This document shows positions 8,604-64,000 of a stretch of 64,000 nt of DNA, piece after piece (the first letter of the stretch is position 1; the number at the start of each line of letters is the position of its first letter). This DNA is from Aquimarina sp. BL5 (GTDB lineage: Bacteria > Bacteroidota > Bacteroidia > Flavobacteriales > Flavobacteriaceae), in the NCBI RefSeq assembly GCF_003443675.1, contig NZ_CP031963.1, positions 682,001 to 746,000 of the forward strand. Reading direction: 5' to 3'. The translations under genes and the position numbers were made by a program. The notes below the pieces were generated by a model that saw only the letters and a list, made by a program, of their open reading frames with translations, was not told where the DNA came from and made no database searches.

Positions 8604-10124
8604 ATGAAAACAACATATTTCAAAAATCGGTTAAGAACAAGATACTTACTTGCATTTCTGATGATTGCATCTATTTTTCAGAGTTGTGCAGAACTTGACG
8701 AAGATCCTTCCGTAAGTCAATTAGCTCCTGGAGCCTATTCTAATTTACAGGAATTAAACTTAGGAGTTAACGGTATGTATGCCAGATTGCAAGATGCTAC
8801 TTGGATGACTACTTTTTATGCCCCTGCTTGGGGAGGTGATGATATCACCACTCATTTTGCCAGTAACAAAGCAGAATTTAGAGAATTTGATCAACGATCT
8901 GTCTCCTCCATAAATTCTAGAATTGCCAATAACTATAGAGCTATTTATGTGGTAATCCGAGCTGCAAATACCATTTTGGTCAATTCGGAAGGATTAGAAA
9001 CTCCGGGAGAAGATGATGTAAAGGATAGGCTTTTAGGTGAAGTCTATTTTATAAGAGCTACAATGTTTCATCATTTGGCACGTATTCATGGACGAATTGC
9101 ATTACCGCTTGTACCTGATCCAACAGCACAACTAAGCCGAGCAAGTCAAGAGGAAGTATACAGTCAGATAGAATCAGATTATTTAGAAGCAGAAAGCTTA
9201 TTACCAGAAATATACCCTGGAGTGCAGGCGGGTGCTCCAAGACCCAATAGTGGTTCTGCCAGAGGAATGTTAGCCAGACTTTATCTAGATTGGGCTGGTT
9301 TCCCAGAAAAAGATAATAGTAAATATGCAGATGCAGCTACAAGTGCAAAACAAGTTATGGATAATAATTCAGGACACGGTTTTGAATTGTTAGATGACCT
9401 AGAAGATTTATGGAAATTAGAAAATAGATTTAATAATGAATCTGTTTGGACAATCCCCTATTGCAGAAGTTGCGGTCAGGCAAATCGTAAATTCGGTAAA
9501 CTAGGAAATCCATCAGATCTATCAGGATGGCAAGAAACATTTGCTGAAATCAGATTCTTTGAAGACTTTCCCGAAGGTGCTAGAAAAGAAGCTACCTATA
9601 GAACAGACCACGACTGGGAAAACTTTAATGATCAACCAACACCTGTTTTCAAGAAAATCGCAGGCCCTATTGAAGACAATCTAGCTCCTGATTTCCAAAC
9701 AGATAGAAATGATTTCTTTATAAGATATGCAGAAATACTATTGATCTATGCAGAAGCTTCTGCCCGATCTGGTGCTATTACGCCAGAAGCCTGGGAAGCT
9801 CTTAATATGATCAGGAGACGTGCTGAAGGATTGCCTTATAATACTCCAGATCCAAGTGTCGATGTTACTTCAGGTGATTTAGCAGAATTAGCCTTTATGG
9901 AAAGAAAATGGGAATTTGCAGGAGAATATCTACGTTGGAATGATTTGGTTCGTATGGAACGCGTCGACCAGGCACTTTCTAATAGAGATCCTCAAACATC
10001 CATGAATGCGGATGGTGCGTTATTAACTCAATTTAACCCGATAACCGGTTCTCTGAGCACAGATAATTATTTTTCTCCGCTTCCACAATTAGAAGTAGAT
10101 CGAAATCCTAATTTAGCAAACTAA
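8604..10124 (+). CDS. RagB/SusD family nutrient-uptake lipoprotein
   Basis: A 506-residue surface lipoprotein that caps the adjacent SusC barrel and captures substrate. The signal peptide ends in a lipobox with Cys28 (SIFQSC). The SusD fold is indicated by the N-terminal LNLGVNGMYARL helix, the RATMFHHLARIHGRIALPLV helical repeat and the C-terminal RRRAEGLP, LAFMERKWEFAGEYLRWNDLVRM and FSPLPQLEVDRNPNL motifs. I chose the ATG at 8604, which starts the signal peptide; a longer frame would overlap susC. It forms an operon with susC and probably with the VCBS gene after a short gap containing a hairpin. Confidence 0.95.
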   Translation: MKTTYFKNRLRTRYLLAFLMIASIFQSCAELDEDPSVSQLAPGAYSNLQELNLGVNGMYARLQDATWMTTFYAPAWGGDDITTHFASNKAEFREFDQRSVSSINSRIANNYRAIYVVIRAANTILVNSEGLETPGEDDVKDRLLGEVYFIRATMFHHLARIHGRIALPLVPDPTAQLSRASQEEVYSQIESDYLEAESLLPEIYPGVQAGAPRPNSGSARGMLARLYLDWAGFPEKDNSKYADAATSAKQVMDNNSGHGFELLDDLEDLWKLENRFNNESVWTIPYCRSCGQANRKFGKLGNPSDLSGWQETFAEIRFFEDFPEGARKEATYRTDHDWENFNDQPTPVFKKIAGPIEDNLAPDFQTDRNDFFIRYAEILLIYAEASARSGAITPEAWEALNMIRRRAEGLPYNTPDPSVDVTSGDLAELAFMERKWEFAGEYLRWNDLVRMERVDQALSNRDPQTSMNADGALLTQFNPITGSLSTDNYFSPLPQLEVDRNPNLAN

Positions 10125-55799: not shown

Positions 55800-56966
55800 T
55801 TAGTTGGAGGAATCTATAACAATTAAATTTAAATCCAAATTGGTACGTTCTTTTCCGTTCACCATAAATAATGCGGTAAACGTATCTAAATCTTTTACAT
55901 ATTGTGTTATAAATCTTTCTGCTTTTTTTTCATCACAGAATAATTCTACAGTCGCAATTACTCCCATATCATGATCCGAAAAAAACAAAAACTGTTCCGT
56001 TCCATTTGTTCCTTTTAATCGCGATACGATAGCATACTCTGATGCTGTCCCCTTAATATCAAGATCAAAAATTGTGTCTTTATTTTTGGCAACGTTTTTA
56101 TATCTAAGTTCTCGATCTTGAATAGAAAAAAAAGAATTTCGCTCATTAAAATATTGAATAAACTTATTATGATTTTTGGTCGGCCCTATATAAACAGAGT
56201 TATGCTCCTTAATATCGTTATATGTAGACTTAGTAGAAAATCGAATCGAAAAGCTCTGATCTCTAGAATAAAAAAGTTTAGTTAAGTGGTAAACAGCAAT
56301 AGACCCCATTTCTGTAACATAAGAATAGTTTGCAGGAATTACATCTTTCCTAAATTCAGGATTCTCTTTTTGAAAACTATAAAAATCATTCAAAGAATTG
56401 ATTTGATAATCCCTATTCCAGCCTACTCTACCGGTTTTAGTTTTAGCCATAAATCCAAAAAAGTCTCCCACTACCAGAGTCGTTTCTTTATTATTATTAA
56501 AAAATGAATCCCATAATACAATAGGCTTATGATATAAAAACTTGAATAAGATTAAACCCAAAATCATTAACAAAGAGAGTGAAACACTAATTGCTACTTT
56601 GTATAAAACTTTATAATCTTTTCTTTTATTATTAATTGTTTTGTTTTGTAAAAATGAGATATAATATTGTCCTTTATCAATGGTAAGCTTCCAAGGTCTA
56701 TTCTTCCCTTCATTTTCATAATATTTTTCAAGTTTCTTTCTGAGATTATAAATATTCACTCGAATACTAGAGGAATTATTTTGGTCTATAAATCTTTTAC
56801 CAAAAATTTCCATCCCAATCGTTGTTTCTTTCAATTGTTTTTTGGAGATAGTAGCTTCTGTCAAAAAACGAAGTAAGTTTTTACTTGAAGGAGACTTAGA
56901 AAATTCTCGACTATCTAGAATATCCTGTAATATTTGTATTTTTTCTTCTTTTGAAAGTTCCTTCAT
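55800..56966 (-). CDS. Membrane-anchored winged-helix transcription factor
   Basis: A 388-residue protein with a DNA-binding winged helix at about 25-105 (RFLTEATISKKQLKETTIGMEIFG, SIRVNIYNLRKKLEKYY, TIDKGQYYISF), one membrane helix at about 121-145, and a periplasmic sensor region of about 240 residues. The winged helix resembles the N-terminal domain of acidobacterial proteins that read RLLRFIVE and IGVEVFGR. The layout is ToxR/CadC-like: signal outside, DNA binding inside. It is divergent from the GH105-DUF2264 gene, which makes it the likely regulator of the uronate genes. The sensor part matches no family known to me. Confidence 0.75.
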   Translation of the reverse strand: MKELSKEEKIQILQDILDSREFSKSPSSKNLLRFLTEATISKKQLKETTIGMEIFGKRFIDQNNSSSIRVNIYNLRKKLEKYYENEGKNRPWKLTIDKGQYYISFLQNKTINNKRKDYKVLYKVAISVSLSLLMILGLILFKFLYHKPIVLWDSFFNNNKETTLVVGDFFGFMAKTKTGRVGWNRDYQINSLNDFYSFQKENPEFRKDVIPANYSYVTEMGSIAVYHLTKLFYSRDQSFSIRFSTKSTYNDIKEHNSVYIGPTKNHNKFIQYFNERNSFFSIQDRELRYKNVAKNKDTIFDLDIKGTASEYAIVSRLKGTNGTEQFLFFSDHDMGVIATVELFCDEKKAERFITQYVKDLDTFTALFMVNGKERTNLDLNLIVIDSSN

Positions 56967-57305
56967 TTTTATTCAAATTCAACTTATAAAAGCTATAAAG
57001 TTAACCGTTACAAATACCGTTAACCAAAGGTTAAATATAGAAATAATTATAACTTTTAAGTATTTTTCTTCAGAAGTCAATAGAATTATTCTAAAAAACT
57101 TAGAAGCTTAATAGAGATTGATAATTTTTAAAGACTTTATAGTATTAAGAATTTTTATGAGAATTATGGTTCTTTCAAATAACAAATTATAATGAATATA
57201 TATCATCTGCTAACTATTATAACGAACCTGAATGAAATCACGCTATTCTAGGAGTAACATCTTTAAACATATAAATCTTAAACCATAATTATTTTCTTGC
57301 TAAAC
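56967..57305. other. Divergent control region of the uronate island
   Basis: About 340 bases between the regulator gene and the GH105-DUF2264 gene. GTTAACC repeats lie close to the regulator start and are annotated separately. I see no coding sequence, and no clear TAnnTTTG box next to the enzyme gene. Confidence 0.5.
57000..57034. promoter_or_regulatory. Repeated GTTAACC motifs upstream of the winged-helix regulator
   Basis: GTTAACC occurs at 57000-57006 and 57019-57025 as direct repeats 19 bases apart, and GGTTAA at 57029-57034 gives an inverted partner. They begin 34 bases upstream of the regulator ATG and could be its own binding sites. Each also contains the palindrome GTTAAC. The role is inferred from position. 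Confidence 0.4.
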
Positions 57306-60300
57306 ATGAAAAAACTTTTCGTACAAACGACATCTAAGATTATATTATTTATTTGTTTTTGCGTTTCCGGTAATGCTCAAGTAAATAATAATCTTGATAT
57401 AACTCCTGTAGCTGTTAAAAAGCAAATGAAGCTTGTAGCTGATTGGCAAATCGAGCATTTCCGAGAAAAATACAGTGGTAGAGACAAACCTCATCATATT
57501 GCAGACTGGACTAATGGAGCACTTTATGTTGGTATGACTAAATATGCGAGAATAGCTAATGATGATAGATACTGGCAATGGTTAAAAAAAATTGGAACGC
57601 AACAAAAATGGCAACTACACTATAGAAAATATATGGCAGATGATCATGTAGTTGGCCAAATGTTTTTAGAATTATTCAGAAAATTTAAAGACTCTTCCAT
57701 GGTTACTCCGACAAAAGAGCGTTTGGACTGGATTATAAAAAATCCAAGTAAACAACCGATCACTTTAGACAATTATAAACACTTAGAAAGATGGACCTGG
57801 TGTGATGCTTTATTTATGAGTCCGCCTGTTTGGGCAAAACTGACAAACATTACTGGCGATCAAAAATATACGGATTGGATGTTAAAAGAATACGAGGTTA
57901 CAAAGCAACATCTTTTTGATGAAGAAGAACATCTATTTTTTAGAGATAATAGTTTTATTGATAAATTAGATCACGGCAATAAAATATTTTGGTCAAGAGG
58001 AAATGGATGGGTATTTGGAGGGCTTACCCTGCTAATGGACGAATATGAACCTGGATCTAAACCTTATGAATATTTTAAGGAAATCTACCTTAAAATGGCG
58101 AAAAAACTCATCAAAATCCAAACTCCAGAGGGGTATTGGTCTATGAGTTTACTCAATCAAAAACATTATCCAACCCCTGAAACTAGTGGAACATCGTTTT
58201 TTACATTTGGTTTAGCGTGGGGTATAAATAATGGAATATTAGACAGAGTAATATATGAACCTCATATAAAAAAAGCTTGGAATGCTCTAAATCGTTCTAT
58301 TACTCCCAAAGGTATGTTAGGCTACGTACAACCTATAGGTGCAGGCCCTGATAAAGCTTTTAAAGACCAAACCGAAGTATATGGTACAGGAGCTTTTCTA
58401 GCCGCTGGTTCTGAAGTATACACCCTGTATGGTGGACAACCAATATATCAGATTTCTAAACCAGATTATATAAAAAGTCCAAAAACCGGAATGACTCGAG
58501 AGCATTGGTTAGATATGGCACAATATATCTTAGAAGGTGCTTTTTCGTATGTAGATAAAATCGATGATCCACTTAAATTTCCAAAATTAGGAAACGTATC
58601 TTACCCTAGGGGTGATTGGCAAATCCCAATAGAAAAATTAGAAGGTTTATGCAGAACACTTTTTGTAGCTGCTCCTTTGTTAAAGGAAAATCCAGAATTA
58701 ACCATTAATGGTATTAGGATAGCAGATTATTATCGGCATAACATAGTAAATCTGATAGATGAAAATCACCCATCATTCATACAAGACAAAGAAAAAGATT
58801 GGCCGGGACAAACCTTGGTCGAATTTGGTGCATTAGGAATTTCGTTCTTTACTATTCCTGAAATAGTTTGGGATCCTCTTACACAGGAACAAAAAGATAT
58901 TTTAGCTCGTAAAATGATTAGTTATGGTGATGGTGCAACCGTTCCTTCTAATTGGAAATTTTTTAACATTTTTGTTTTAAGTTTTTTTAAAAGTCAAGGA
59001 TATGTGGTCAATGAAACGTTATTGGTCGATTATTTAAATAAGAGTTTAGATCATTATCGAGGTGATGGTTGGTATAACGATAATCCCGCTTATGATTATT
59101 ACAGTATGTGGGCGTTTCAGATGTATGCTGCTTATTGGTCTGAGGTATTTGGAAATAAATATTACCCTGAAATTGCTAAAAAATTCAAGGCAAATTTTTT
59201 AGATATAAAAGATAGTTATCCCTACATGTTTAGTAAAGATGGAGAAATGATAATGTGGGGAAGAAGTATTAGTTATCGTATAGCTTCTATTAGTCCATTT
59301 CCTTTTTTAGGTTTTTATCCAGAAGAAACCAAAAACGTTAACTGGGGATGGATGCGGCGTATTTCTTCTGGAGTATTATCACAATTCTTGCAACATCCTC
59401 ATTTTATGAAAGATGATATTCCAACATTGGGATTTTATGGATCATTTGATCCTTCTGTGCAATATTACAGCTGTCGAGGAAGTGCTTTTTGGATGGGAAA
59501 AGCTTTTCTCAGTTTACTACTACCAAAAGAAAATGAATTTTGGAATGCTACAGAAAATGATGGAGCATGGGATAATGAATTAATCAAGGATAAAGCACAT
59601 AATAAGTTTTTTAAAACTTCAGAAATCATGCTTACCAATTATCCAAATATTGGAGCTACGGAAATTCGAGCTTGGTGTAATGTACCAATTACCGGAGTGA
59701 AAGAGCCCTTCCGAGGTAGCGAAAACTATAACAAACTAGCATACAACAGTGCTTTTCCCTGGCAAGCTGATGATCCTAATGGTATTGTATCTATGAATTA
59801 CATGTTTAAAACCGGAGTTGATACTATCCCATACGAACCTGGAAGATTATACACCTTTAAAAAATTTGAAAATGGTGTCTATTATCGAGATCTAAAATCC
59901 GAAATTATTGATGATGTTTCTATAAATCTAGCCGATATCCCTCTTAAAAATGGGATTCTACGCGTAGATAAAGTTAATACTAAAAAACCTCTAGATTTCA
60001 TTTTAGGACACTATAGTCTGTCACATATCAACGGATATATAAAAAAATCTGTTCAACAAATAAAAGATACAGAGGTACATATCATTGATAATGGCGAATA
60101 TCAATTGGCTTTGATTCCTATAAAAGGATGGGATACCATCGCTACCAAAACTACGACAGATTTACATCCAGAAACTAAAAAAAGTACTGTAATGAACGTT
60201 AAAGTAAAACATCCTCTCTCTAAACAAGACGATGTCTATATCACAGCTATGTTATGGAAAAAATCTGGAACTGATTTTACAATTGACGAATTGTCTGTTA

Positions 60301-60383
60301 TTAAAAAAATTAAAATGAATAAAAAAAATAAAGAGATTACTATAATACATCAAAATAATTCAAAACACACTATTTCTTACTAA
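57306..60383 (+). CDS. GH105-DUF2264 fusion enzyme (unsaturated uronyl hydrolase)
   Basis: A 1025-residue exported two-domain protein. After a signal peptide (1-25, SGNAQ) comes a GH105/GH88-type (alpha/alpha)6 domain, about 30-385, with ADDHVVGQ and the catalytic-type Asp in WTWCDALFMSPP (D167); these enzymes remove unsaturated uronic acid from oligosaccharide ends left by lyases. Residues about 400-1020 form a DUF2264 domain (REHWLDMAQYILEGAFSYV, YPRGDWQIPIEKLEGLCRTLF). As far as I recall, DUF2264 overlaps CAZy family GH154, which has a beta-glucuronidase, so two uronic acid activities may be combined. The ATG at 57306 starts the signal peptide; an upstream TTG is rejected. KduI follows 11 bases later. 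Confidence 0.85.
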   Translation: MKKLFVQTTSKIILFICFCVSGNAQVNNNLDITPVAVKKQMKLVADWQIEHFREKYSGRDKPHHIADWTNGALYVGMTKYARIANDDRYWQWLKKIGTQQKWQLHYRKYMADDHVVGQMFLELFRKFKDSSMVTPTKERLDWIIKNPSKQPITLDNYKHLERWTWCDALFMSPPVWAKLTNITGDQKYTDWMLKEYEVTKQHLFDEEEHLFFRDNSFIDKLDHGNKIFWSRGNGWVFGGLTLLMDEYEPGSKPYEYFKEIYLKMAKKLIKIQTPEGYWSMSLLNQKHYPTPETSGTSFFTFGLAWGINNGILDRVIYEPHIKKAWNALNRSITPKGMLGYVQPIGAGPDKAFKDQTEVYGTGAFLAAGSEVYTLYGGQPIYQISKPDYIKSPKTGMTREHWLDMAQYILEGAFSYVDKIDDPLKFPKLGNVSYPRGDWQIPIEKLEGLCRTLFVAAPLLKENPELTINGIRIADYYRHNIVNLIDENHPSFIQDKEKDWPGQTLVEFGALGISFFTIPEIVWDPLTQEQKDILARKMISYGDGATVPSNWKFFNIFVLSFFKSQGYVVNETLLVDYLNKSLDHYRGDGWYNDNPAYDYYSMWAFQMYAAYWSEVFGNKYYPEIAKKFKANFLDIKDSYPYMFSKDGEMIMWGRSISYRIASISPFPFLGFYPEETKNVNWGWMRRISSGVLSQFLQHPHFMKDDIPTLGFYGSFDPSVQYYSCRGSAFWMGKAFLSLLLPKENEFWNATENDGAWDNELIKDKAHNKFFKTSEIMLTNYPNIGATEIRAWCNVPITGVKEPFRGSENYNKLAYNSAFPWQADDPNGIVSMNYMFKTGVDTIPYEPGRLYTFKKFENGVYYRDLKSEIIDDVSINLADIPLKNGILRVDKVNTKKPLDFILGHYSLSHINGYIKKSVQQIKDTEVHIIDNGEYQLALIPIKGWDTIATKTTTDLHPETKKSTVMNVKVKHPLSKQDDVYITAMLWKKSGTDFTIDELSVIKKIKMNKKNKEITIIHQNNSKHTISY

Positions 60384-60394
60384 TAAATTACTTT

Positions 60395-61237
60395 ATGAGC
60401 ACAATATATGAAACGCGTTATGCTAGTAACCCAAAAGCTGTAAAGCATTATGACACAAAAGCATTACGAGATGAATTTTTGATTAAAAATCTAATGCAAC
60501 AAGATAAAATTGTTTGGGTTTATACACATTACGATCGTTATATGGCCGGTTCTGCTGTTCCTGTTAACAAAGAACTAAAATTAGAAACCATTGATCCTAT
60601 AAAATCAGACAACTTTACGGATCGAAGAGAATTAGGAGTTATTAATGTAGGTGGTGCAGGACATGTAACTGTAGATGGGACTACGTACGCATTGGGATAT
60701 AAAGATGCATTATATATTGGAAAAGATAGCAAAAATGTAGTTTTCAAAAGTGATGTCCCTAACAATCCAGCTAAGTTCTATCTAAATTCTGCACCTGCAC
60801 ACCGTACTTTTCCTACTAAACCTATAACTAAAGAACAAGCAAATAAATTGGAACTTGGAGCAATGGAAACTGCTAATGCGAGAACTGTTTATCAAATGAT
60901 TCTTAGTGGAGTTGTAGAAACATGTCAGTTACAAATGGGAATGACAGAATTAAAACCAGGAAGTGTATGGAATACGATGCCAGCACACGTACATGATCGC
61001 AGGATGGAAGTCTATTTTTATTTTGAAGTCCCAGAAGAACAAGCTATTTGTCATTTTATGGGTCCGGTGGATGAAACACGACATATTTGGTTACAAAATT
61101 GCCAAGCAGTTATCTCCCCTCCTTGGTCCATACACTCAGGATCAGGAACTAGTAACTATACATTTATCTGGGGAATGGCAGGTGAAAATTTAGACTATAA
61201 TGATATGGATATCGCAAAAATTACGGAGTTAAAATAA
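60395..61237 (+). CDS. kduI: 5-dehydro-4-deoxy-D-glucuronate isomerase
   Basis: A 280-residue cytoplasmic cupin isomerase converting 5-dehydro-4-deoxy-D-glucuronate to 2,5-diketo-3-deoxygluconate in the Kdu pathway for unsaturated uronates. The zinc ligands H198, H200 and E205 (PAHVHDRRMEVYFYF) and H247 (WSIHSGSG) match the E. coli protein, with positions shifted by two. It lies 11 bases after the GH105-DUF2264 gene. The next-step enzymes KduD, KdgK and KdgA are not in the window and may lie beyond its right edge. Confidence 0.95.
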   Translation: MSTIYETRYASNPKAVKHYDTKALRDEFLIKNLMQQDKIVWVYTHYDRYMAGSAVPVNKELKLETIDPIKSDNFTDRRELGVINVGGAGHVTVDGTTYALGYKDALYIGKDSKNVVFKSDVPNNPAKFYLNSAPAHRTFPTKPITKEQANKLELGAMETANARTVYQMILSGVVETCQLQMGMTELKPGSVWNTMPAHVHDRRMEVYFYFEVPEEQAICHFMGPVDETRHIWLQNCQAVISPPWSIHSGSGTSNYTFIWGMAGENLDYNDMDIAKITELK

Positions 61238-61524
61238 TCACTTAAACCATGACAAATCAATCATTTGATAATTTAAAAACGATAACATTAGCTGTGTAAA
61301 AGATTTAGAACCTTAGTATTTGAAAAATGTAGGCCTTAATGGAGAAAAACTATTCTCTTATCCTTTCTAATATTATTGATTTTGTTAATGAATTCTATTT
61401 CACCTAAAAGAAGAAATTTTGTAGCTATTGTTAAACTTTCTAATGATGATTGATGGTCAAGAAATATTAAAAATGACGTTTTTATCTTTTTCATAGCAAA
61501 GCTTGTAAAATAAATAATAAATAG

Positions 61525-62754
61525 ATGAAACTTTTTAGTCCTTTTTCTTTAGCTATTATATTAATCTCATTTGGATGTAGTTCTACTTACAGTCAAGAAA
61601 TTACTATTAAAAACACATTGAATATTGAGCGTATAGATGAATTGGTTTGTATTCCAATAACTAAAATTGATACTCGCGTCCTCAATAAAGAACTAACTCC
61701 TATTATTTATGATAATAACTCTAGAGCAATTCCTTTTCAACTAGAGGATATTAACGATGACGGCGAATGGGATCAGTTAATTTTTGTTACTAATTTTAAA
61801 CCTGGAGAAGTAAAAAAAATTCATTACAACGTTATTGAAAAATCTAAAACACCTTCATTCCAGAAAGCAACAGACATTCACTTTGGTGTTGGTAATTCAC
61901 GTGCAAATATTTCTGAAGTACAATATTACAATCGTATAAACGATCCAAGGCTGGCTCCTCAAAAAAAAATATTTCAAATGGAAGGTCCTGCCTGGGAAAA
62001 TGATAAAGTAGGGTTTCGTATGTATTTTGATCCCCGAAATGGTATTGATATTTTTGGAAAAACGACTTCCAATTTAACATTATCAACAGTTGGGATTCTT
62101 GGAGATTATCACACAAAAGAAAGCTGGGGAATGGATATCCTCAAAGTTGGTAATTCATTAGGTGCTGGAGCAATTGCCATACAACTAAAAGATTCACTTT
62201 ATCGAATTACAGGAAAAAATGGTGCTGCATTTAAAGTAATTGAAGAAGGTCCTATTAAAGCTTCTTTTGAAATTAACTATGTTAATGACAAAATACATAA
62301 GATCCCTATACAAACAAAGCACAAAGTTTCTATTTACAAAGGACAATGGTATTATAAAAGTGAGATCTATTTATCAGGAATAACTTCTGAAATGAAACTT
62401 GTAGCTGGTATTGCTAATCTAAAACCCAACACAATGCATATAAAAAAAGGCGAAGATAATGTAAGTATGTATTCTTTTGGGAAACAGTCAGAAAATGGAG
62501 ATCATCTGGGTATGGCACTAATTTTAAATAAGGATGTGTATTATACTCACGGTACTATTCAAAAAAAAGAAACTGGTATTACTAATACCCATTATGTAGT
62601 ATTTAATTCTGAAAACAAAATTCCTTTATCCTATTACTTTTTATCAGGGTGGGAAGCTTCTGATTCTAAATTCAAAAGCGAAGAAGGTTTTTCTAAAGAA
62701 ATAGAAACTATACTGCAAAAACTTGCTAATCCTATCGTAGTAGAATATGAATAG
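61525..62754 (+). CDS. DUF4861 domain-containing lipoprotein
   Basis: A 409-residue protein with a lipoprotein-type signal (ILISFGC, Cys18), followed by a beta-rich DUF4861 domain covering the rest (for example VFNSENKIPLSYYFLSGWEASDSKF at the end). The family is common in polysaccharide-use loci of Bacteroidota, especially those dealing with uronic acids; its activity is unclear to me. Its stop overlaps the start of dctP by 8 bases, so the two are translationally coupled. The 287 bases upstream contain no gene except a possible 16-residue frame. Confidence 0.8.
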   Translation: MKLFSPFSLAIILISFGCSSTYSQEITIKNTLNIERIDELVCIPITKIDTRVLNKELTPIIYDNNSRAIPFQLEDINDDGEWDQLIFVTNFKPGEVKKIHYNVIEKSKTPSFQKATDIHFGVGNSRANISEVQYYNRINDPRLAPQKKIFQMEGPAWENDKVGFRMYFDPRNGIDIFGKTTSNLTLSTVGILGDYHTKESWGMDILKVGNSLGAGAIAIQLKDSLYRITGKNGAAFKVIEEGPIKASFEINYVNDKIHKIPIQTKHKVSIYKGQWYYKSEIYLSGITSEMKLVAGIANLKPNTMHIKKGEDNVSMYSFGKQSENGDHLGMALILNKDVYYTHGTIQKKETGITNTHYVVFNSENKIPLSYYFLSGWEASDSKFKSEEGFSKEIETILQKLANPIVVEYE

Positions 62755-63736
62755 TTTCAAAAAAACAATACAGATCTTTTTATGGACTATCTTAATGTTA
62801 GTACTTACCTCTTGTTATAATTCGAAAGAAGTACGTGTATTGCGTTTAGCTCATATCTTAGATACAAAACATCCTGTTCATCAGTCAATGGAGATTTTAG
62901 GTGAACGTCTTGCTCAAAAATCCAATGGAAAATTAACATTAAAAATTTACCCTAACAGTCAACTTGGTGGAGAACGTGAGTGCTTAGAACTACTTCAGAT
63001 AGGTAGTTTAGATATCACTAAAGTATCGGCTGCAGTACTAGAAAATTTCATTCCAGAATACAAAGTTTTCGGAATACCGTACTTATTTAGAGATAAAACA
63101 CACGCGTTTTCAGTTTTAGATGGGCAATTAGGAAATAACTTATTATCCAAGGGTGAGCAATTTAACTTACGAGGTCTCACCTTTTATGACGCAGGTAGTA
63201 GAAGTTTTTATACCAAAGAAAAACCACTGAGTACTCCGAATGATCTAATAGGTAAAAAAATTCGGGTAATGAAAAGTAATATGGCTATTGAAATGGTAAA
63301 TCAATTGGGGGGAGCACCCACTCCCATTTCATGGGGAGAACTATATACAGCTCTGCAACAAGGAGTTGTTGATGGTGCAGAAAATAATCCTCCAAGTTTT
63401 TATACATCAAAGCACTATGAAATTTGTAAATATTATAGTTTAGATGAACATACATCTATCCCTGACGTTCTGGTAGTAGGCATTAATACTTGGAAAAAGT
63501 TAAATAAACAAGAAAAAAAATGGTTAAAAGAAGCCAGTCAAGAATCAAAAATAGCACAACGTAAACTCTGGGCTGTTTCTGAAAAAAAATCATTAGAAGC
63601 TGTAATAAAAGCTGGAGTACAAGTGACAAGACCTGACAAATCTCTTTTTGAACAAAAGACTAAAGAAACCATTCATAATTTTAAAAGCCAACCTGAATTA
63701 TTTAAACTTATTACATCAATAAAAACTGACTACTAG
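62747..63736 (+). CDS. dctP: TRAP transporter solute-binding lipoprotein
   Basis: A 329-residue periplasmic binding protein of a tripartite ATP-independent transporter. Its signal ends in a lipobox (LVLTSC), so it is a lipoprotein. The DctP family is shown by LRLAHILDTKHPVHQSM, SNGKLTLKIYPNSQLGGERE, the conserved Arg in KKIRVMKSNMAIEM and WGELYTALQQGVVDGAENN. In this context the ligand is probably a uronate or unsaturated uronate. The gene overlaps the DUF4861 gene and abuts the small permease gene dctQ. Confidence 0.92.
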   Translation: MNSFKKTIQIFLWTILMLVLTSCYNSKEVRVLRLAHILDTKHPVHQSMEILGERLAQKSNGKLTLKIYPNSQLGGERECLELLQIGSLDITKVSAAVLENFIPEYKVFGIPYLFRDKTHAFSVLDGQLGNNLLSKGEQFNLRGLTFYDAGSRSFYTKEKPLSTPNDLIGKKIRVMKSNMAIEMVNQLGGAPTPISWGELYTALQQGVVDGAENNPPSFYTSKHYEICKYYSLDEHTSIPDVLVVGINTWKKLNKQEKKWLKEASQESKIAQRKLWAVSEKKSLEAVIKAGVQVTRPDKSLFEQKTKETIHNFKSQPELFKLITSIKTDY

Positions 63737-64000
63737 ATGAAAAAACATATCGATACTTTTGTTGAGAAAACTCTTGTTTTTTTGCTTTTTATTATGCTTA
63801 TCAGTGTAGTCTGGCAAGTATTTTCAAGATATATTTTAAAATCGCCAAGTACAATTACTAACGAACTTTCAAGTTTCTGTCTCATATGGATCGGCTTACT
63901 AGGAATGGCCTACGCAACTGGACAAAAGTTACATTTAGCTATTGACCTAATTCCTACTCTAATAGTTCAACGAAAAAAAACATTATTCGATGGTATTGTA
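63737..64000 (+). CDS. dctQ: TRAP transporter small permease DctQ (partial, cut by window end)
   Basis: An 88-codon open frame starts directly after the dctP stop and runs off the window without a stop. It begins MKKHIDTFVEKTLVFLLFIM and shows the DctQ signature WQVFSRYILKSPSTITNELS, then IWIGLLGMAYATGQKLHLAID, with two membrane helices so far. DctQ pairs with the large permease DctM, expected just beyond the right edge. Confidence 0.92.
   Translation, partial: MKKHIDTFVEKTLVFLLFIMLISVVWQVFSRYILKSPSTITNELSSFCLIWIGLLGMAYATGQKLHLAIDLIPTLIVQRKKTLFDGIV

Follow-up and report, generated by a model that had tools for sequence, protein, structure and literature searches.

How does a gene cluster with an unsaturated uronyl hydrolase and a TRAP transporter, in whose operon no SusC/SusD or lyase genes were found, obtain its substrate, and what does the transporter carry? 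The question is raised by an island at the right end of a 64,000-nucleotide stretch of DNA (the window) from Aquimarina sp. BL5 (GCF_003443675.1, contig NZ_CP031963.1, 682,001-746,000, forward strand). The island is real: Pfam and NCBIfam profile matches recovered every gene that an earlier note had named, in the order regulator (divergent), GH105-DUF2264 fusion, KduI, DUF4861, DctP and DctQ, followed by DctM. The signal calls made there also held, with a signal-peptide-like N-terminus (hence a putative export signal) on the fusion, none on KduI, and a lipobox pattern on both DctP and DUF4861. Extension to the right, for which the note had called, placed the end of dctQ at window-equivalent position 64201 (L004:9737-10201) and completed the TRAP with a dctM gene (PF06808, 419 bits) ending at 65504 (L004:10209-11504). 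This is the island's last gene, 1.5 kb beyond the window end; the ORFs after it, inspected by reading, lie on the minus strand, and no terminator was found downstream of dctM. SusCD and lyases further right in the operon, which would have spoken against the note's reading, did not appear. SusD matches number 15 genome-wide, the nearest at window positions 9693-10118, ~46 kb left of the regulator; the claim that no SusC/SusD is in view is thus true of the island, but not of the entire window. Based on the genome-wide SusD search, the island lacks the SusC/SusD pair of a Bacteroidota polysaccharide utilization locus (PUL). Its separate parts are already known, and their combination is unusual.

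With moderate confidence, we interpret the island as an accessory exo-uronidase module that works independently of lyases, with TRAP import and under a regulator with a private operator. Working in the periplasm or extracellularly, the fusion would use its GH154 half to dehydrate a saturated non-reducing-end beta-uronate to a delta-4,5-unsaturated end; its GH105 half would then hydrolyze this end, or an unsaturated end produced by a lyase, to 5-dehydro-4-deoxy-D-glucuronate (DKI). DctPQM would import DKI for isomerization by cytosolic KduI, while the KduD, KdgK and KdgA steps would be supplied by other loci following loss of the island kduD. The transmembrane winged-helix regulator would switch the operon via its private direct-repeat operator.

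The fusion enzyme (57306..60383, plus strand, 1025 aa) comprises a predicted signal peptide, a GH88/105 domain, a DUF2264/GH154 domain and a C-terminal domain, as assigned by Pfam, PDB matches (4ce7, 221 bits; 9o4u/9nwf) and active-site mapping; it starts at the ATG at 57306, with a second in-frame start (TTG) at 57297. The first half (57426..58427, plus strand; PF07470 at residues 44-377, 251 bits) falls in the GH88/GH105 unsaturated uronyl hydrolase family, with D167 kept in 21/21 aligned fusions and D112 in 20/21, residues that presumably include the catalytic Asp of the WxD motif. The second half is a DUF2264 (GH154) dehydratase domain (58494..59558, plus strand; PF10022 at residues 400-754, 277 bits), matched by solved glucuronate dehydratases at E 3e-18. 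DUF2264 corresponds to CAZy GH154, whose members are uronate dehydratases according to a 2025 study, which reports for one of them, BcGDH, dehydratase activity with no hydrolase activity found (PMC12269599). Nine of the 10 active-site residues described there as mutated are kept in the fusion at 25% overall identity to BcGDH, including Y599, R653 and Y657 (BcGDH Y229, R285 and Y289), and these nine are invariant in 21/21 aligned fusions; the tenth, BcGDH N176, is S548 here. With nine residues of a GH154-type half kept, saturated ends could serve as substrates, and since dehydration would come before hydrolysis, no lyase would be needed: we expect the fusion to act first as a dehydratase on a saturated terminal uronate and then as a hydrolase on the resulting end. 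This result is at odds with the earlier view of an enzyme that merely finishes lyase products. A rather improbable version of that view is that only lyase-left unsaturated ends are trimmed, the DUF2264 half having either no activity or simple hydrolase activity, and that the TRAP scavenges unsaturated uronates produced by other cells. An island with neither lyase nor SusCD would fit it, as would earlier reports, cited in PMC12269599, of GH154 members as glucuronidase or galactosidase; however, both the invariance of the nine residues and the activity of BcGDH argue against it. The dehydrating exo-uronidase that we prefer is itself weakened by the low identity to BcGDH, given that substrates vary among GH154 members, and by the one differing residue.

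A similar pairing is found in Bacteroides caccae BcPUL25, where the GH154 dehydratase (BcGDH) acts on a saturated terminal uronate and thereby prepares it for the unsaturated uronyl hydrolase BcGH88 (PMC12269599). However, those are separate proteins in a PUL with a PL35 lyase, whereas in the island a single chain holds both predicted activities, next to KduI and a TRAP and without SusCD or lyase. In the Formosa agariphila ulvan PUL, a dehydratase (P29_PDnc) likewise precedes a GH105 (P33_GH105) that releases DKI, but both belong to a full PUL (PMC8511951), and P29_PDnc has no sequence relation to GH154 as stated in PMC12269599. No description of a GH105-GH154 fusion was found among the literature matches listed, nor by a term search within PMC12269599. 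It is possible, and we suggest it tentatively, that one secreted polypeptide here substitutes for a beta-glucuronidase by dehydrating and hydrolyzing saturated ends and feeds a DKI-specialized TRAP, with a one-component transmembrane regulator acting on a single private operator, in a lyase-free and SusCD-free Bacteroidota module. If so, a GH105-GH154 fusion would signal exo-uronidase activity on saturated glycans despite the absence of a lyase or glucuronidase, and the annotation of such loci would change.

Fusions were present in 3 of 66 Aquimarina genomes, in all three with KduI, DUF4861 and DctPQM adjoining, and both sister islands additionally hold KduD. Among 80 loci checked, both domains share one unbroken frame only on a Pontiellaceae contig (L015), together with KduI and DctPQM, and in a distant fusion (L075) that adjoins SusC/D; a further candidate (L016) was rejected, as its two halves are in different frames. 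GH105 and DUF2264 are neighboring separate genes in G595 and G228, and a trimodular relative (P0024) has a GH145-like domain N-terminal to GH105 and GH154 in a single chain. The other flavobacterial fusion genomes count against the proposed module, as does the SusC/D beside L075: no TRAP or KduI match was found in the stretch around the fusion in any of the four, and three have a SusC match. An 868-aa BNR_4 protein (G664) gave no PDB sequence match.

KduI (60395..61237, plus strand) scores at equivalog level as 5-dehydro-4-deoxyglucuronate isomerase (NF002091, 438 bits, cut-off 250); the genome has one other KduI match. Between it and DUF4861 lies a gap of 287 bp (61238..61524, plus strand), overlooked in the earlier note, that seems to hold both ends of a lost kduD: 61238-61291 would cover the leader plus the opening 43 bp, and the final 22 bp would fall within 61432-61454. 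Aligned with sister island G666, the gap gives two matches in the same order, one of 54 bp at 74% and one of 23 bp at 87% (a longer match spanning the KduI end reaches 80% over 90 bp), and kduD sits at the equivalent place in both sister islands. Because kduD appears to have been lost, the island may be decaying, which weighs against a functional module. The DUF4861 protein (61525..62754, plus strand; 307 bits) has its lipobox pattern at C18, kept in both sister islands. A PDB sequence search up to E 0.1 produced no match for it, and no paper on it was found in the literature searched; its structure model indicates a beta-supersandwich, a fold common to GH38 and PL26 domains, which does not fix its putative part in the pathway.

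A paralogous uronate locus at 2.87-2.91 Mb (L012, L006, L007) shares with the island the order KduI, DUF4861, DctPQM, with a DctP that is 68% identical. Unlike the island, it also carries SusCD, a hybrid two-component regulator, UxaC, UxuA/B, a KduD-like SDR, an aldolase and lyase genes (including an ulvan-lyase-like gene and two PL14-type genes), and its GH88 lacks the fusion to DUF2264. The SDR, a gluconate 5-dehydrogenase by NCBIfam that scores 240 bits with the kduD model (cut-off 339), is read as KduD from genomic context. The aldolase is slightly below its NCBIfam cut-offs and above the Pfam cut-off, and a PfkB kinase (L122) has its specificity assigned by context only. The island apparently relies on genes elsewhere for the KduD step and the aldolase. 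Given this SusCD/lyase uronate locus and an island kduD reduced to a remnant, the island seems to be an accessory module. The formerly proposed scavenging of uronates released by other cells found no specific support, since the genome has its own SusCD, ulvan-lyase-like gene, PL14-type genes and second TRAP and the island seems dependent on genes elsewhere; the same lyase and SusCD genes also speak against an enzyme confined to trimming lyase-left ends.

The remaining question is the cargo. DctP (62747..63736, plus strand; PF03480, 277 bits), a TRAP solute-binding lipoprotein with its lipobox pattern at C23 kept in both sister islands, is followed by DctQ (63737..64000, plus strand, cut by the window end; PF04290, 57 bits on the in-window part), and PF03480, PF04290 and PF06808 are adjacent and above cut-off. 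Judged by its relatives, the clade to which this DctP belongs is associated with uronates, in agreement with the import of uronates proposed previously: a uronate catabolic gene lies within 10 kb in 21/21 other flavobacterial loci of the clade (SusC/SusD counts near TRAP loci, from single-query tblastn, are lower bounds). The Salmonella hexuronate TRAP STM3169-3171 is likewise a DctPQM for uronic acid, but it binds D-glucuronate and its operon has no adjoining sugar genes (PMC7660916). Residues R152, R173, N213 and D240, kept in 33/33 aligned DctPs, correspond to STM3169 Arg150, Arg170, Asn210 and Asp237, with R173 equated to the carboxylate-binding Arg170 via the 4n91 alignment; Asn35/Gln36 are changed to I37/L38, and the placement of Glu74 is not confident. 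A structure model of DctP (nine sequences) had a mean pLDDT of 72, with parts of the binding region below 50, and was therefore used just for the titles of its PDB matches.

UxaC is present in 18 of the 21 other clade loci, and UxaC, UxuA or UxuB in 20, which points to saturated hexuronates as cargo for the clade overall and counts against import of DKI. Solved relatives 4n91 and 4mhf are also D-glucuronate binders (PMC7660916), and none of the pocket positions compared distinguishes DctPs of KduI-only islands from those of UxaC-type loci. Nonetheless, it appears unlikely that the island TRAP carries a saturated hexuronate (D-glucuronate or D-galacturonate) with KduI beside it incidentally: the island and both sisters have KduI (the sisters also KduD) with no UxaC/UxuA match and, besides a KduD cross-match, no UxuB match, and the Asn and Gln common to the pockets of 4n91 and STM3169 are Ile37 and Leu38 here. 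Import of an acid other than a uronate, for example sialate or a C4 acid, is very improbable. TRAP families are broad, and SiaP structures are also among the matches, with roughly half the score, but the first sialate binder came at rank 23 in a profile search with DctP (186 bits versus 331 for the best), and all 21 other neighborhoods have uronate catabolic genes. For the DKI import that we prefer, only one paper among the literature matches listed was directly relevant to a TRAP linked to unsaturated uronates, GH105 or 5-keto-4-deoxyuronate (PMC13050008). It proposes periplasmic GH88/GH105 and TRAP import of uronic acids for a Pseudoalteromonas marina ulvan locus, although this organism belongs to the Pseudomonadota and its system includes ulvan lyases, a TonB receptor and several transporters. 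If our reading holds, the island would allow a direct test of whether what an unsaturated uronyl hydrolase releases is imported by TRAP transporters.

The regulator (55800..56966, minus strand, 388 aa) is transcribed divergently from the fusion operon and has a winged-helix-like N-terminus (a sub-threshold match to Trans_reg_C, 17.8 bits, E 0.0035), a single hydrophobic segment predicted from hydropathy to span the membrane (residues 126-144), and a C-terminal domain of ~240 aa. Its relatives are 75% and 72% identical in the sister islands and 48% identical in another genus (L133), near a GH105 gene. The predicted operator, TTAACCGTTACAAATACCGTTAACCAAAGGTTAA (57001..57034), consists of a direct repeat, ACCGTTA-N5-ACCGTTA, plus TTAACC-AAA-GGTTAA. 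Across the three islands, 36/42 columns of the operator block, chosen after viewing, are conserved versus 56/138 in the surroundings. The exact pattern occurs once in the 6.01-Mb genome and recurs at the equivalent position in each sister island; in L133, a one-mismatch version lies 73 bp upstream of GH105 (0/200 shuffles). From these positions, we infer that the regulator acts through this operator. If so, so simple a pair would lend itself to a reporter assay, from which the inducer, and through it the glycan, could be identified. No operator-like site with up to three mismatches was found in the L006 stretch of the paralogous locus, and two overlapping three-mismatch sites in L115 were rejected as being at chance level. 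One further one-mismatch operator-like site lies elsewhere in the genome, at 2037101.

The fusion enzyme of the uronate island (57306–60383, plus strand) appears to join two activities in one chain. Its N-terminal half matches PF07470, and a PDB sequence search returned 4ce7, titled an unsaturated 3S-rhamnoglycuronyl hydrolase, as the best solved relative of this GH105 half (221 bits), followed by 5noa (169 bits). The C-terminal half is PF10022/DUF2264, and its sole PDB sequence matches at E ≤0.001 are 9o4u and 9nwf, both named glucuronate dehydratase, and 8oi4, called a beta-galactosidase. From these matches and general background, we take DUF2264 to be the same family as GH154. According to PMC12269599, terminal glucuronate is dehydrated by the Bacteroides caccae GH154 glucuronate dehydratase (BcGDH) and by the founding GH154 member BT_3677, and the BcGDH product serves an unsaturated uronyl hydrolase as substrate. 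Replacing any one of ten active-site residues with alanine left the enzyme inactive in that paper's assay. The fusion retains nine of the ten, among them Y599, R653 and Y657, whose equivalents (two tyrosines and an arginine) are discussed for catalysis in the paper, and the tenth position is changed from N to S. Identity to BcGDH is 25% (75/305 aligned), and the chance of at least 9/10 matches at random columns is low (P ~2e-5), but since the ten residues were author-chosen as conserved, the match speaks for family membership more than for function. The nine kept residues are invariant in 21/21 aligned fusions.

We propose that a terminal uronate would be dehydrated first and hydrolysed second; with both steps in one chain, no lyase would be needed. 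This mechanism, which combines a dehydrating-hydrolysing fusion with a uronate TRAP module, is the one toward which we lean with moderate confidence. The earlier note had read the island as a possible scavenging route, with a last periplasmic cleavage and TRAP import of unsaturated uronates released by other cells; its assignment of the transporter to uronates is retained (see DctP below), while the enzymatic part is revised, as the fusion would need no lyase. Pairing of a dehydratase with GH105 or GH88 is already known (PMC12269599 and PMC8511951), and for an ulvan locus, PMC13050008 proposes that TRAP transporters import uronic acids where GH88/GH105 enzymes work in the periplasm. In the literature searched, we found no description of both enzymes in one chain or of the island gene set without SusCD.

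Domain matches to named genes bear out the gene order first read from the sequence, from the regulator through DctQ, and the N-termini also agree with that reading: the fusion begins with a signal-peptide-like segment, KduI lacks one, and DUF4861 and DctP have lipobox patterns. These lipobox patterns recur in both sister islands of the genus, in genomes G664 and G666. The host genome is a single contig of 6.01 Mb (window at 682001–746000), and a search to the right located the dctM that the note had proposed looking for: dctQ ends at window-equivalent position 64201 and dctM at 65504. ORFs beyond dctM lie on the opposite strand; the operon extends past the window, to dctM. Spacing is tight (11 bp between fusion and KduI, an 8 bp overlap of DUF4861 and DctP, no gap between DctP and DctQ) but for a single 287-bp gap between KduI and DUF4861. 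A SusD match (window 9693–10118) follows a 1025-aa ORF ~46 kb left of the island.

Within the genus, the fusion occurs in 3/66 genomes, with DctP adjoining in all three. Both sister islands comprise regulator, fusion, KduI, KduD, DUF4861 and DctPQM, followed 3' of dctM by an MFS gene in G664 and a similarly beginning ORF in G666; G664 additionally has a BNR_4 protein, and G666 a second GH105, which comes first after the divergent gap, ahead of the fusion. The kduD gene, present in both sister islands, is absent from the window. The first 54 bp of the 287-bp gap match the G666 kduD leader and first 43 bp (74%), and 23 bp further in match the kduD end (87%), both pieces being in order; against G664 alone, the similarity shrinks to 33 bp at 79%, close to the 3' end. 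The KduD-like SDR of a second uronate locus in the same genome, 84% identical to G666 KduD, could supply the missing step. Two BNR_4 proteins with secretion tails, L137:3396-6002 in G664 (868 aa) and L133:11323-13971 in G296, of another genus (882 aa), are encoded next to GH105 genes and a regulator of the island type; a PDB sequence search returned no solved relative of the former.

That second locus (locus 2: L012:15082-20000, L006 and L007; genome 2.867-2.912 Mb) is a full uronate locus. One arm encodes UxaC, GH2, GH88, SusD, SusC and a hybrid two-component regulator, and the divergent arm a D-mannonate-oxidoreductase-type SDR (UxuB), UxuA, KduI, the KduD-like SDR (gluconate 5-dehydrogenase per NCBIfam), DUF4861, KDPG aldolase and DctPQM, with a DctP 68% identical to that of the island. 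A run of secretion-tailed, lyase-like genes follows, including Polysacc_lyase, DUF5060, two PL14 and a BNR_4 protein that matches short ulvan lyases (414 bits) and is presumably PL24. As this locus includes SusCD, the cell already owns a SusCD uronate route, and the island is an addition. A third, alginate-type locus (L122; genome 1.464-1.480 Mb) holds SusD, an alginate-lyase/heparinase-type enzyme, a cupin, MFS, SDR and a PfkB kinase, a candidate KdgK; its transporter gene is MFS rather than TRAP. Genome-wide, there are matches to 15 SusD, 2 KduI, 2 GH88, 1 DUF2264 and 3 Alginate_lyase2. A third possible TRAP (L008:7233-10787, 4.97 Mb) has two permease-like ORFs before a distant DctP (24% identity).

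Close DctP relatives (E ≤1e-60) were detected in 22/296 Flavobacteriales genomes, counting Aquimarina sp. BL5, the only one with two such DctPs. We compared the neighbourhoods in all 21 others, two of them shortened by contig ends, and each had a uronate catabolic gene ≤10 kb from DctP (UxaC in 18, UxuB in 14, UxuA in 13, KduI and KduD in 11 each, DUF4861 in 8); SusC or SusD was present in at least 11. The DctP tree places the island protein in one group with those of the two sister islands (support 0.999), and next to this group the DctP of locus 2 (0.92). Contacts to D-glucuronate given in PMC7660916 are Arg150, Arg170, Asn210, Asp237, Asn35, Gln36 and Glu74; equivalents of the first four (R152, R173, N213, D240) are present in 33/33 aligned DctPs, the Asn35/Gln36 positions are I37/L38 in the island DctP, and Glu74 had no confident counterpart in the alignment. 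By the gene content of its neighbourhoods, the clade to which the island DctP belongs is a uronate TRAP clade. Its predicted cargo is 5-dehydro-4-deoxy-D-glucuronate according to island content and hexuronates according to clade context.

Both domains occur in 27 of the best 120 of 3784 homologues, 4 of these 27 also having a BNR_4 domain. Proteins P0023, P0024, P0027 and P0029 each combine BNR_4, GH105 and DUF2264. The P0024 BNR_4 domain matches GH145 structures 5muk and 5mvh (best E 3e-43), and the GH145-like domain precedes GH105 and GH154. Arabinogalactan proteins carry rhamnose-glucuronate caps that are attacked by GH145 enzymes, via hydrolysis or lysis (PMC8406133), and each of these four proteins may possibly remove a cap, dehydrate and then hydrolyse within a single chain. 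The full fusion is found in 5/397 Flavobacteriaceae genomes, Aquimarina sp. BL5 counted; within 29-40 kb around the fusion, the four others, outside the genus, have a SusC match in 3/4 and no TRAP or KduI matches. A fusion-alignment search of named genomes gave 577 loci, of which the best 80 include two with both domains in one unbroken frame and eight with DctP nearby (KduI in 6/8), among them Pontiella-type and Cellvibrionales contigs. An unbroken fusion accompanies KduI and DctPQM in L015 (Pontiellaceae), a context that favours the proposed mechanism, and a distant one lies alongside SusC/D in L075, which speaks against it; GH105 and DUF2264 are adjacent but separate genes in genomes G595 and G228.

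The divergent regulator-fusion gap contains a block conserved in 3/3 islands (36/42 columns identical vs 56/138 around it, the block having been picked after viewing the alignment). Within it lies ACCGTTA-N5-ACCGTTA, with a repeat spacing of 12 bp, which is exact in both sister islands and, as a pattern derived from this same site, has its one exact genomic occurrence in the island. Allowing ≤2 mismatches gave 50 genome matches vs 98 for a reversed-pattern control, so the exact match alone counts. G296 has a one-mismatch copy 73 bp 5' of a GH105 gene (0/200 shuffles), in a locus whose regulator is 48% identical to that of the island; the pattern did not occur in locus 2 (L006 stretch). We infer that the regulator binds this predicted operator. 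Elsewhere, an imperfect palindrome (L115:3890-3910), a site at chance level, lies ~230 bp upstream of a distant regulator relative (L115:4138-5295; 28%) near another uronate TRAP.
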